From positions 1-5,922 of the forward strand of contig JADFJB010000185.1 of NCBI GenBank assembly GCA_022566355.1: DNA of 5,922 nucleotides, given 5' to 3'. The stretch comes from a candidate division KSB1 bacterium. Lineage in GTDB: Bacteria > Zhuqueibacterota > JdFR-76 > DREG01. The position numbers were made by a program, and so were the translations under genes. Positions 317 through 5,684 of this stretch are shown here, piece by piece. The notes under the pieces are model-generated. The model worked only from the letters and a program-made list of their open reading frames with translations, did no database searches and had not been told where the DNA came from. The stretch's first letter is position 1, and each line of letters begins with the position of its first letter.

Positions 317-1243
317 TTATTCGTTGAAAAAATCTATTGGCAAATCATTCCAAACTTGTTCTACAATGCCGTCCTTCAATAAAAATGCCTTGGGAAGTTT
401 CCTGTAGAGATTTCCGACTTCTTCACGGGGGGCATATCCTAAATTGAAAATCACGCCATACTTCCATACAAATTCAAAGACATTGTCTCTATTTCCAACA
501 AGTATTCCGACTAACTCCGGAGCTGTTGAGTTATTTAAAATCCGGTTTAAATCTTCGACGATCTTTTCGCACTGTTCACACTCTTCATCCAGCAAGACCA
601 CTAAATACTCCCCCTCGGTAAGATCAGCATCTATATCACTCACTGATAGATCTTTGAGATCGGCGCCAATTTTCAGATCAGTGACAATGGAATCAACCGG
701 CATGCGGGGACCTAGAAACGGCAAGGCTACGGCGAACACAAGGGAGGCTAAAAACAGGCGATTTTTCCACTGCAAATTTTGAATGTTATTACCCTTCATA
801 CTCAGCCAGGAGACAAATAATCCACCCAAAAGAAATATATCCTCAATGATTACCTCTGCCGGAGTTCTACTTGCAAGACTTCCAAAACAGCCGCACCCTT
901 CCGTCTTTCCCTGGGACCATGCCCATCCTGTAACAATAATAAAAAAGAAAAGCAAAATTCCTGCGCCGGTAAAAGTTATTTTGGGTCTATAATTGATGAG
1001 TAATGCTATGGCAATCAGGAATTCTACAACGATGAAGAATAGAGCTGCAATATATGTTAAAATACCGGAAATAATACCATAAGACTCTATTTGATAGGCA
1101 AATCCGTCAGGATCGAAAGATTTAAGGATACCTGCGGTTAGGAACACAAAAGCGACAATTATTCTGCATACAAAGCCTAAGAGAACCAGCCATTTATGTG
1201 AACTTGTAATGGTTAATTTTGGTGCCGAATCCGATGGATTCAT
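317..1243 (-). CDS. MauE/DoxX-like membrane protein with C-terminal thioredoxin-like domain
   Basis: The 308-residue protein has about four hydrophobic segments (roughly 18-40, 57-84, 91-110, 131-148) and a fifth at 162-178 leading into a soluble domain. The membrane part resembles the MauE/DoxX group: an early V-F-L-x-A-G-I-L-K-S-F-D-P stretch and a G-C-G-C-F-G motif with Cys at 117 and 119. MauE is associated with disulfide formation during methylamine dehydrogenase maturation. The soluble part (about 185-308) looks like a thioredoxin fold: hydrophobic strand V-V-L-L-D, then C-E-Q-C (Cys 222, 225), and a possible cis-proline at 284 (K-L-P-K-A-F). A membrane redox partner for exported thiols is the likely role (inference). 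It starts 13 nt after the upstream thioredoxin gene ends, so the two are probably co-transcribed. The start codon has no strong Shine-Dalgarno, which fits translational coupling. No mau structural genes are seen, so a methylamine role is not implied. Confidence 0.8.
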   Translation of the reverse strand: MNPSDSAPKLTITSSHKWLVLLGFVCRIIVAFVFLTAGILKSFDPDGFAYQIESYGIISGILTYIAALFFIVVEFLIAIALLINYRPKITFTGAGILLFFFIIVTGWAWSQGKTEGCGCFGSLASRTPAEVIIEDIFLLGGLFVSWLSMKGNNIQNLQWKNRLFLASLVFAVALPFLGPRMPVDSIVTDLKIGADLKDLSVSDIDADLTEGEYLVVLLDEECEQCEKIVEDLNRILNNSTAPELVGILVGNRDNVFEFVWKYGVIFNLGYAPREEVGNLYRKLPKAFLLKDGIVEQVWNDLPIDFFNE

Positions 1244-1256
1244 ATTAAGAAGCTTT

Positions 1257-2138
1257 TCAATTCTCTTTAGGTGAGTAGTTACCTTTTAGAATTGCCACAA
1301 TATCCTCTTCCATAGAATCTATAGGCGTGCCCGTGATTCTACCAATCTCTAACCCTCCCCTATGAACGATAACAGTAGGGATCTTCTTGATTGCATTCTC
1401 TTTTAAAAATTTTGCAGGTTGATTAAACTGCTTGTTTATACCAAAATAGGAACAGTCGAGATTAGAATTATTACATTCGGAAATGGATTTCATGAGTGTT
1501 GGAACTAATTTTTTGCAATGGGGACACCAGGTACCAAAAGCAATTGTGATCGTAACAGCCTTATCGTAGTTGGATAAAAATTCGATTGCCTCGCGATTGG
1601 GTTCATACTTATTCATCAATTGCTTATAGGCTACTGTATGTTTTGTGATTTCATCGACTGAGGCCTCACCCACCAAATGTTGACGTGGAACAACACTAAT
1701 TTTCTTATCGCCAACCACAAATTCAAGAGCAGATTTGTTTTGAGTAAAATTAGTAATGAAAGTCATTGGGGTATTCTCATCGACCAGAACAGAAAATTTA
1801 CCTTCGGAGAAAACTATTTGTTTACTGTCTATGGTATTTACGATTCCCGTTTTTACATTCAATACTAATATATTCTTAAAAGCTAAACTTTGGATCATTA
1901 CTGCTGTCCTGTCTTCCCGCAGGTAAAATCTTGCACGGTTATCCATATTTCCATTGATAACAATGCTGAGGTGGCTGACTTCATTCCAATTCTTTGCAGT
2001 TTTCGCCTTTTCAGGCAGTTTTTGGGTAAGTGCCTGGTTTGGGTAAATCGAAATCAATGAAATCACCAGGGCTATCGGAATATACAACCACTTCTTAAAT
2101 ATTTCTGCTTTCCACGATCGCGTAAGCATCATTTTCAT
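1257..2138 (-). CDS. Exported thioredoxin-fold protein with CPHC site
   Basis: The frame is open from 2174, but I choose the ATG at 2138 because a good Shine-Dalgarno (AGGGAGA) lies 3 nt before it; this gives 293 residues. The N-terminus has basic residues then a hydrophobic stretch (about 18-34) ending near N-Q-A-L-T, a signal peptide or anchor. Residues about 45-150 form a beta-rich region I do not recognise. The C-terminal third is a thioredoxin fold: F-G-T-W-C-P-H-C-K-K with Cys 205 and 208, and I-P-T-V-I-V with the expected cis-proline at 254. A second Cys pair at 222 and 229 lies between them. The active site suggests a periplasmic thiol-disulfide oxidoreductase; TlpA/DsbE-like or MauD-like roles are all possible. 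It sits between the candidate selenoprotein gene and the MauE/DoxX-like gene. The 186-nt gap upstream of the start may carry its own promoter. Confidence 0.8.
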   Translation of the reverse strand: MKMMLTRSWKAEIFKKWLYIPIALVISLISIYPNQALTQKLPEKAKTAKNWNEVSHLSIVINGNMDNRARFYLREDRTAVMIQSLAFKNILVLNVKTGIVNTIDSKQIVFSEGKFSVLVDENTPMTFITNFTQNKSALEFVVGDKKISVVPRQHLVGEASVDEITKHTVAYKQLMNKYEPNREAIEFLSNYDKAVTITIAFGTWCPHCKKLVPTLMKSISECNNSNLDCSYFGINKQFNQPAKFLKENAIKKIPTVIVHRGGLEIGRITGTPIDSMEEDIVAILKGNYSPKEN

Positions 2139-2141
2139 TGT

Positions 2142-2148
2142 TCTCCCT
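2142..2148 (-). promoter_or_regulatory. Ribosome binding site fixing the thioredoxin-gene start
   Basis: On the minus strand AGGGAGA is followed 3 nt later by ATG (2136-2138). This is much stronger than anything before the upstream ATG at 2174, where only AAGG at a 9-nt distance is seen. The shorter start is therefore preferred. Confidence 0.65.
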
Positions 2149-2230
2149 ACGTTTGTTTTCAACCACATGTTCAATTGCCTTATAAAAAGTAAATACTCTG
2201 TTAAACCATTAAAATAGTTTTTTTTTTTTC

Positions 2231-2324: not shown

Positions 2325-3086
2325 TTAATTTTCATTCAAAGTTTGGATATATTCCACCAGAGATTCAATTTGATTTTGATCCAATGGTCCCCCATTTTCC
2401 TTGGCAAAACCTAGCATCATTATATTGTAGGTTCCTTTTGCGATGAGCCCATATAAAACTTTATCCGATAAGTTGTTAAAAAACTCCGGTTGGACTAATG
2501 ACTTGGCAATATGTTCTACACCTTTGCCATCTTCTCCATGACATTTAGCGCAATCGGCATCAAACAAGGCTTTACCGTATTTGTCAATGCCTTTGGCCAC
2601 ATGACAACTTATACATTTGCCCTTAAAATAATTGCCTTCCATAACAATTCCACTATGTTCACTACCGGCAACCATTTCCCTTTCAACCACAGTAGCATAG
2701 ATCATTATTTTCTTAATCGGCTCTGTTTTATCATTTGAGTAGATACGGACTGATTTGGCAATTCTACCCATTTTGTTTGCGGCATTAAAGGTGACTTTAA
2801 TTTCCGCTGATTCGCTGGGTTGCAAAGCTTCTGAACTCAGAAGTGCGGCTGTGCAGCCTCAGGAACCTCTTAATTTGTAAATATTTAAGACAGAATCCCC
2901 CACATTGGTAACCCTGAAAATATGGTTTACAACGCTTCCTTCCTGAACCTCACCGAAATCAAAGCTTTCTTGTGAAATTTTGATTTTGGCGCCATTATCC
3001 TGTGAATAATTCGGATTGATGGCTTGAAATCCAAGCATGGACAAGGATAACACAAAAGCGGAAATATTTTTACTCATCGTTTTCAT
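2325..3086 (-). CDS. Candidate selenoprotein: exported DUF1573 domain fused to two-CXXCH cytochrome c, in-frame TGA
   Basis: I join two ORFs that share one frame and are split only by a TGA at 2859-2861. Read as selenocysteine, this gives 253 residues with U76. Residues 1-29 are a signal peptide. Residues about 35-133 match DUF1573 as I know it: F-D-F-G-E-V-Q-E-G, then V-T-N-V-G-D, then R-G-S-U-G-C-T where the family has S-C-G-C-T, then P-S-E-S-A-E-I, and Y-S-N-D. Homology therefore runs through the TGA without a gap. Residues about 150-253 are a cytochrome c region with C-I-S-C-H (158-162) and C-A-K-C-H (179-183), and Met 223/224 as a possible axial ligand. The two heme motifs are only 21 residues apart, and the first could be structural or a second heme. 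A SECIS-like hairpin follows the TGA. Alternatives are a nonsense mutation, a sequencing error, or two separate proteins. Confidence 0.72.
2828..2858 (-). promoter_or_regulatory. Candidate bacterial SECIS element
   Basis: Directly after the TGA, the minus strand has GGCT-GCAC-AGCC (2858-2847), a small 4-bp hairpin. It is followed by CTTCTG-AGTT-CAGAAG (2843-2828), a perfect 6-bp hairpin with a 4-nt loop. Twenty-one nt separate the TGA from the apical loop, and G is the second loop base. Known bacterial SECIS elements have a short upper stem about 16-37 nt after UGA, and a small loop with G in the first two positions. The element lies within coding sequence, as is usual in bacteria. The fit is structural only; no folding energy was computed. 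Confidence 0.6.
2859..2861 (-). other. In-frame TGA, candidate selenocysteine codon
   Basis: The codon order on the minus strand is AGA GGT TCC TGA GGC TGC ACA, that is R-G-S-U-G-C-T. TGA lies exactly at the first Cys of the SCGCT motif of DUF1573 proteins, while the second Cys (TGC) is kept, leaving a U-x-C pair. Other genes here end in TGA (thioredoxin gene, five-heme cytochrome, hicB) and use TGG for Trp, so a general reassignment of UGA is unlikely. Confidence 0.68.
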
Positions 3087-3091
3087 CAAAC

Positions 3092-3098
3092 CCACCTC
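3092..3098 (-). promoter_or_regulatory. Ribosome binding site fixing the selenoprotein-gene start
   Basis: GAGGTGG on the minus strand is followed 5 nt later by ATG at 3086-3084. A GTG at 3095 would extend the frame by three residues but overlaps this Shine-Dalgarno, so the ATG at 3086 is preferred. The strong site also argues that the gene is still translated. Confidence 0.7.
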
Positions 3099-3221
3099 AT
3101 TGAATCACTTTTTTATTTGATTGCATAAATATATATCAAAATTCTTCTCATTGAAAGAAAAAAATTAAATTATTATTTTAAAATCGAATTGATTACAATT
3201 TATCATTGGAAATGTATTTAC
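3099..3221. promoter_or_regulatory. Divergent A/T-rich intergenic promoter region
   Basis: This stretch separates the two diverging cytochrome genes and must hold promoters for both. On the plus strand TTGAAA (3151-3156) and TATTTT (3174-3179) are 17 nt apart, matching the sigma70 consensus at five and four of six positions. They would start transcription near 3186, about 45 nt before the five-heme cytochrome start. On the minus strand TTGATA (3139-3134) is the best -35-like element, with only a poor TAAAAA 18 nt further. No clear operator palindrome is seen. Confidence 0.4.
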
Positions 3222-3225
3222 GGGA
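3222..3225 (+). promoter_or_regulatory. Ribosome binding site supporting the five-heme cytochrome start
   Basis: GGGA lies 7 nt before the ATG at 3233. The frame is open further upstream (TTG at 3206, ATG at 3212), but those starts have no well-spaced Shine-Dalgarno and would put charged residues ahead of the signal sequence. Confidence 0.45.
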
Positions 3226-3232
3226 TGTTTTT

Positions 3233-4462
3233 ATGAAAATGATATCGACCTTATTAAATATTACTTCGAAGGCATTCGTATGTAGTATATTTCTAATCAT
3301 TCAAAATTGTACTTATTCGAATGATGGTCAGCCAAAAATACAGCCCCTGACAGAACACTGGGAGAAACCTATACCCCACCAAACCATACCTGCGGGTCTT
3401 AATTCCATCAGCGCTAAGGAATGCGGCGTTTGCCATCAGGAGATTTATAAGGAATGGAAAGATTCATTTCATGCAATAGCGCTGCAAGACCCGCAATTCC
3501 AGGGTGAGTGGAAAAGAGACGGAAATTTGTGGGTGTGCATCAATTGTCATACACCCCTTCAAGATCAACAGGAATTCATCATCCTGGGCAAAGAAGACGG
3601 AGATTATTACAAACCAGTACAAAAAAGCAATCCGAACTTCGATCCCAATTTGAAAGAGGAATCCATCACATGTGCAGCTTGTCATGTTCGAGATGGTGCA
3701 GTGATTGGGTTGAGAGGAGATACAATGGCTCCCCATGCAGTCAAAATAGATCCGGAATTCTTATCACGACAATACTGTTTGACCTGCCACAACGTGACAG
3801 ACGAACTAACCCCAAGCCTGGTTTGCAGCTTTCAGACTGGCGATGAGTGGGCCGCCGGTCCCTATCCCGAAAGGGGGCGTGATTGTATATCCTGCCACAT
3901 GCCTGAGGTCTATCGTTCTCTGACTGGTTATACTCAGGCTCGGTGGACACGACGGCATACCTGGATCGGCAGTGCGATCCCGAAATTTATGGGGCAGGGT
4001 AAAATTGTGAGCGGGTACAAAAGAGGCATGGAGATAGACATTCAATCTTCACAGAAATCCCTCACATCGGGAGACAGCACTTTTGTCACAATAACAGTTA
4101 CCAATCAGAATGCCGGCCATTATTTACCAACTGGTGATCCCGAGTATTTTATTACTTTGGATCTAAGCTTGGAGAATGATGAAGGAAGAGTGATCGCCGA
4201 CACAACATATCGAATCGGTCAATTGTGGAAGTGGTGGCCTAAGGCGGAGAAAGTATTTGACAATCGGCTGCGACCTTTGGAAAAAAGGAATTACTTGTTT
4301 TCATTCACGGTTCCTAAAAATGGCGGAGATCGTACATTCAAAGTTATAATAACCAATCATCGTTTGACCGAGGAGAATGCCAAAGCCACAAACATATTTG
4401 GTATAGCTCCTCTGAATGCAGTCGTTTTCGAGAAGGAGATTGTTTTTGAAAATCCGGAATGA
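3233..4462 (+). CDS. Exported five-heme cytochrome, c554-like, with Ig-like C-terminal region
   Basis: From the chosen ATG the protein has 409 residues. The N-terminus (K-M-I-S..., then a hydrophobic stretch at about 14-25) is a signal peptide. It ends in I-I-Q-N-C with Cys 26, which could be an atypical lipobox. Five CXXCH heme sites follow: C-G-V-C-H (64-68), C-I-N-C-H (102-106), C-A-A-C-H (147-151), C-L-T-C-H (182-186) and C-I-S-C-H (218-222). The first is embedded in E-C-G-V-C-H-Q-E-I-Y-K-E-W-K-D-S-F-H-A, the pattern of the cytochrome c554/c552 group related to hydroxylamine oxidoreductase. Free His in S-F-H-A, A-P-H-A and R-R-H-T-W could be distal ligands. Residues about 265-409 lack heme sites and look like a beta-sandwich (V-T-N-Q-N-A-G-H-Y-L-P-T-G-D). 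The role is probably periplasmic or surface electron transfer; the substrate is unknown. It diverges from the DUF1573-cytochrome gene. Confidence 0.85.
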   Translation: MKMISTLLNITSKAFVCSIFLIIQNCTYSNDGQPKIQPLTEHWEKPIPHQTIPAGLNSISAKECGVCHQEIYKEWKDSFHAIALQDPQFQGEWKRDGNLWVCINCHTPLQDQQEFIILGKEDGDYYKPVQKSNPNFDPNLKEESITCAACHVRDGAVIGLRGDTMAPHAVKIDPEFLSRQYCLTCHNVTDELTPSLVCSFQTGDEWAAGPYPERGRDCISCHMPEVYRSLTGYTQARWTRRHTWIGSAIPKFMGQGKIVSGYKRGMEIDIQSSQKSLTSGDSTFVTITVTNQNAGHYLPTGDPEYFITLDLSLENDEGRVIADTTYRIGQLWKWWPKAEKVFDNRLRPLEKRNYLFSFTVPKNGGDRTFKVIITNHRLTEENAKATNIFGIAPLNAVVFEKEIVFENPE

Positions 4463-5438: not shown

Positions 5439-5684
5439 ATGATAGAATTGCAATATTCGCTCGTTATCGAGGCCACGAAAGAACCTGATTTTTTTGGATT
5501 CTTTTCAAATGAGCTGGAAGGTTTTTCAGGTATAGGCCATTCTATAGAAGATTGTTTGTTCAAAGCAAAATGGGGTATGATAGAACATACTAAATTATTA
5601 AAAAAACAAGGTTTGGAGGTACCTCCCCATAATCCTAACCCTACCATTATTATTCAAAATGAAAGCCAGATTGAAGCAGCTTGA
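5439..5684 (+). CDS. hicB: HicB-family antitoxin, short form
   Basis: The 81-residue protein begins I-E-L-Q-Y-S-L-V-I-E-A, the first strand of the HicB partial RNase H-like fold. It continues with F-F-G-F-F-S-N-E-L-E-G-F-S-G-I-G (matching the family's P-x-L-P-G-C segment), then S-I-E-D-C-L-F-K-A-K-W-G as the helix, and G-L-E-V-P-P-H-N-P-N-P. HicB binds and neutralises HicA. This one ends about 15 residues after the fold and has no visible helix-turn-helix or ribbon-helix-helix tail, so DNA binding is doubtful. It is intact and has its own ribosome binding site, while its partner toxin gene is frameshifted. It may thus be an orphan antitoxin. Confidence 0.8.
   Translation: MIELQYSLVIEATKEPDFFGFFSNELEGFSGIGHSIEDCLFKAKWGMIEHTKLLKKQGLEVPPHNPNPTIIIQNESQIEAA

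Follow-up and report, generated by a model that had tools for sequence, protein, structure and literature searches.

Genes at the locus and the in-frame TGA

The window, i.e., the whole stretch of 5,922 nucleotides analysed here, is a 5.9-kb contig of a candidate division KSB1 metagenome-assembled genome (MAG) of 213 contigs, designated as G000 and estimated to be 98.5% complete. Its features are collected in Table 1. Translation of the DUF1573-cytochrome c gene, with TGA as U, gives 253 residues up to a TAA stop, with a single in-frame TGA (context GSUGCTAALLSS) as the sole break of the frame. As originally predicted, this TGA takes the place of the first Cys of the S-C-G-C-T motif, where homologues carry Cys; an AGGTGG-like ribosome binding site was likewise found upstream of the ATG, and the heme motifs CISCH and CAKCH downstream of the TGA. 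TGA is also the stop codon of three other ORFs of the window, as had been claimed, namely those of the thioredoxin-like protein and of the multiheme cytochrome, and a small ORF at 5439-5684 (+). A general code change for UGA was therefore rejected.

Table 1. Position, strand and supporting evidence of the features of the window.
Feature	Position	Strand	Evidence
MauE/DoxX membrane protein, CGCFG motif, downstream neighbour	317..1243	-	domain search
Thioredoxin-like protein (WCPHC), downstream neighbour	1257..2174	-	domain search
DUF1573-cytochrome c gene, UGA putatively read as Sec (U76)	2325..3086	-	translation, Pfam, full-length orthologues L111 and L112
Cytochrome c region with two CxxCH motifs (residues 158 and 179)	2337..2615	-	Pfam, motifs, orthologue alignment
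DUF1573 (predicted ASH/PapD-like beta-sandwich) domain, residues 35-125	2712..2984	-	Pfam, AlphaFold
Candidate bacterial SECIS stem-loop CUUCUG-AGUU-CAGAAG	2828..2843	-	agreement with published bSECIS criteria, statistically weak
In-frame TGA at first Cys position of S-C-G-C-T, residue 76	2859..2861	-	translation, alignment
Region of the ribosome binding site (AATGAGGTGGGTTTG upstream of ATG)	3087..3103	-	read from sequence
Multiheme cytochrome c, five CxxCH motifs, divergent neighbour	3206..4462	+	domain search, motifs

The protein has a signal-like N-terminus, followed by a DUF1573 match (PF07610) that crosses the TGA (E 5.6e-25, 87.7 bits versus a gathering cut-off of 26.1) and by a Cytochrom_C match (PF00034) at residues 170-250 (E 1.8e-10, 42.4 bits versus a gathering cut-off of 21.3). 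The AlphaFold model, with pLDDT of 93-98 across residues 31-130, is good for the DUF1573 region only, that of the cytochrome part being poor, with a shallow alignment. Structure comparison of the model showed resemblance of the predicted DUF1573 fold to the PapD-like domains of HYDIN and CEP192, and HYDIN-type domains were also the PDB relatives of this part by profile. The DUF1573 domain is thus predicted with high confidence to be an ASH/PapD-like beta-sandwich, with U76 placed between two strands.

As regards the neighbouring genes, a MauE/DoxX gene with the CGCFG motif adjoins a Cys-form DUF1573 gene also in another family within the phylum, indicating that this linkage is not peculiar to the window; the gene pair was observed at loci L020-L024, L085 and L090, belonging to two families of the phylum. 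The divergent multiheme cytochrome, which has no TGA inside, is weakly similar to NF040886 (ExtKL), a family that likewise has selenoprotein members. The 81-aa product of the small ORF at 5439-5684 appeared HicB-like by eye and had no match in Pfam or NCBIfam. A scan of the window with Rfam retrieved a chance Histone3 match and nothing else, and no relatives were found in the viral contigs searched.

Cys/UGA alternation among DUF1573 relatives and the candidate bSECIS

DUF1573 relatives were gathered from sets of 59 and 82 genomes within the phylum, from 388 genomes of a wider set and from one GTDB contig scan. An alignment of homologues had been proposed as a check of the original prediction, with alternation of Cys and UGA as the expected outcome, and this is what was observed: in the 81 DUF1573-type domain hits aligned from the examined loci (about 100 columns), the column of the first Cys of C-G-C-T holds Cys in 47 rows and an in-frame TGA in 10. 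No other in-frame TGA occurs in the alignment, all ten falling in this one column, which is therefore more than chance. The UGA forms span ten genomes of at least two phyla; within the phylum they are found in the window's own genome and in two other families (L042, L089), and outside of it in a Myxococcota MAG (L099) and in six further genomes (L118, L119, L121, L123, L125 and L138). SelA was present in all four UGA-form genomes tested besides that of the window (G042, G070, G082 and G138). Such an alternation at one column is the classic pattern of Cys/Sec pairs that serves to recognise bacterial selenoproteins. In the match to a further DUF1573 relative, L113 (G294 C44:27109-27522), an in-frame TAG was reported.

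Genomes G133 (L111) and G254 (L112) have full-length orthologues, 45% and 36% identical to the window protein, respectively. Both align over the whole fusion with no frame breaks, the C-terminal half and the two heme motifs being kept as in the window protein, but they carry Cys at the position of U76, where the latter would have Sec (UGA). No SelA above the cut-off was found in G133.

Selenocysteine decoding in bacteria involves a stem-loop, the bSECIS, for which the published model admits an apical loop of 3-9 nt with G in one of the first two positions, and an upper stem of 4-16 bp, at 16-37 nt from the UGA and with an MFE ≤ -7.5 kcal/mol (as given in the excerpts of PMC13188914). The hairpin in the window has its apical loop, AGUU with G in the second position, 21 nt after the UGA, and folds, in its extended form, at -13.6 kcal/mol. 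Of nine UGA forms checked against the same criteria, six agreed with them (the exceptions being L042, L089 and L119), as did 12 of about 34 Cys forms used as controls. When compared with synonymous recodings, the hairpin of the window did not stand out, with p of about 0.13, versus 0.024 in selD of the same genome (see below) and 0.016 in L125. The candidate hairpin is thus compatible with the bSECIS model, but only weakly beyond chance, these statistics having little power to discriminate.

Selenocysteine machinery and competing explanations

SelD is a well-known bacterial selenoprotein, with Sec usually placed at the active site. The selD gene of G000 (L016:1393-2451 (-), contig C12, 375 bits) contains one in-frame TGA and, if this is read through, codes for an intact protein of 352 residues with T-C-G-U-A-A-K at the active site, the UGA thus falling at the usual place of Sec. 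It thereby provides separate, independent evidence for the use of UGA as Sec in this organism. SelD and the DUF1573-cytochrome protein share UGA in place of Cys, each with a candidate hairpin compatible with the bSECIS model; the two proteins are unrelated.

The remaining genes were not retrieved from the 213-contig assembly. No match to selA was found in G000, nor any selB, all GTPase matches to the SelB model being below threshold; as for selC, the tRNA-Sec model retrieved Ser, Leu, Tyr and other tRNAs only. The pattern that retrieves selC in genomes G001 and G004 gave in G000 a single chance match (contig C95), which is not a tRNA according to ARAGORN or Rfam. Formate dehydrogenase-type genes were searched as well, and none contained a TGA. 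The original prediction had named absence of the Sec machinery from the genome as a ground for abandoning the selenoprotein reading; this holds in part, with selA, selB and selC absent from the assembly, while selD is present and itself carries a UGA.

In both other genomes of the window's family selA is directly followed by selB. One of them (G001) has a tRNA-Sec with anticodon TCA, and in the other (G002) selC was not detected. Moreover, three of the seven selC genes found in relatives lie at most about 0.55 kb from a contig end. Taken together, the lack of a detectable selC in G002 and this position near contig ends indicate that selC is easily lost from such assemblies and, since the family has selA-selB, an assembly or binning gap is the likeliest explanation for the lack of selA, selB and selC in G000. 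A gene for a membrane protein was observed near selA in G001, G002 and G004, conserved in the selA-selB neighbourhoods L061, L062 and L064, among which a MFS transporter gene upstream of selA-selB was also noted in two genomes. The membrane protein adjoining selA in these three relatives has no match in G000, a result that fits a gap or a deletion alike.

A recent loss of Sec decoding by deletion of selA, selB and selC, with selD and the DUF1573-cytochrome gene as relics in which UGA terminates translation, would account for three genes missing together from an assembly of such completeness, as well as for the missing gene near selA. We consider it unlikely, however, as both putative relics are otherwise intact, with no frameshift and no second stop, and the lack of a detectable selC beside selA-selB in G002 shows that genes of this kind do go missing from assemblies; in three relatives, selC lies close to a contig end. 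Still less probable is that the TGA arose at the Cys codon through a mistake in sequencing or assembly, or as a chance nonsense mutation: the window comes from a single MAG contig, and one base change from TGC or TGT to TGA would suffice, but TGA stands at this codon in nine further genomes and at no other position of the domain, and selD of the same genome carries UGA at the usual Sec position. Least credible of all is the decoding of UGA as Sec in both genes by an undescribed system working without SelA, SelB and a canonical tRNA-Sec, which would fit the presence of two UGA-containing genes with selA, selB and selC undetected; the family members have ordinary selA-selB, and a gap in the MAG would be a much simpler explanation.

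Proposed role and relation to known selenoproteins

The DUF1573-cytochrome gene very probably codes for an exported selenoprotein, as the original prediction had proposed, and this reading gains support from the Cys/UGA alternation across ten genomes, the Cys fusion orthologues, the UGA-containing selD and the selA-selB genes of the family. In the window organism, Sec would be inserted as residue 76 through the usual SelA/SelB/tRNA-Sec pathway of bacteria, aided by the candidate stem-loop just 3' of the UGA. The redox pair of the U-G-C motif, Sec76 and Cys78, would lie on a loop of the predicted DUF1573 beta-sandwich, tethered to a c-type cytochrome whose two CxxCH motifs would attach heme. 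The protein would probably act as an electron shuttle, with thiol/disulfide (or selenenylsulfide) exchange at U-G-C on one side and the heme chain on the other, and with the adjacent thioredoxin and MauE/DoxX proteins as partners; transfer from thiol/selenol to heme is the predicted role. The product of a translation restart 3' of the TGA would lack the signal peptide, and presumably could not be exported for heme attachment.

The original prediction had also stated that no DUF1573 selenoprotein family was described, which turned out to be wrong: in the excerpts of PMC9312934 and PMC13188914, DUF1573 (PF07610) is listed as a selenoprotein family with the motif UGC, the prediction, first made for the Delta 1 symbiont of Olavius algarvensis, being credited to Zhang and Gladyshev 2007. 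The window protein shares the domain and the U-G-C motif with this recorded form; in the window protein, the chain also carries a c-type cytochrome and its two CxxCH motifs. A DUF1573 selenoprotein fused to a cytochrome is not mentioned in these excerpts. The window gene is thus a new cytochrome-fused member of a recorded selenoprotein family, and not a new family; what appears to be new is the combination of a Sec form and a c-type cytochrome in one chain, beside thioredoxin and MauE/DoxX genes. With this member, a selenoprotein family that has received little study comes to include chains having their own c-type cytochrome. For the U/C-G-C motif of DUF1573, this offers the concrete hypothesis of thiol-selenol redox chemistry in an exported protein, coupled to a heme chain.

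The results also show DUF1573 selenoproteins to be more widespread than matches to the curated NCBIfam model would indicate, and their genes are at risk of being annotated as truncated. The best NCBIfam match of the window protein is NF041425 (OS_HP2 family (seleno)protein), at residues 38-133, with 72 bits versus a curated cut-off of 100 bits, and the protein would be overlooked in automatic annotation based on this model. Scores under this cut-off were likewise obtained for L085, a Cys homologue, for the two Cys fusions and for the three other UGA forms that were scored.
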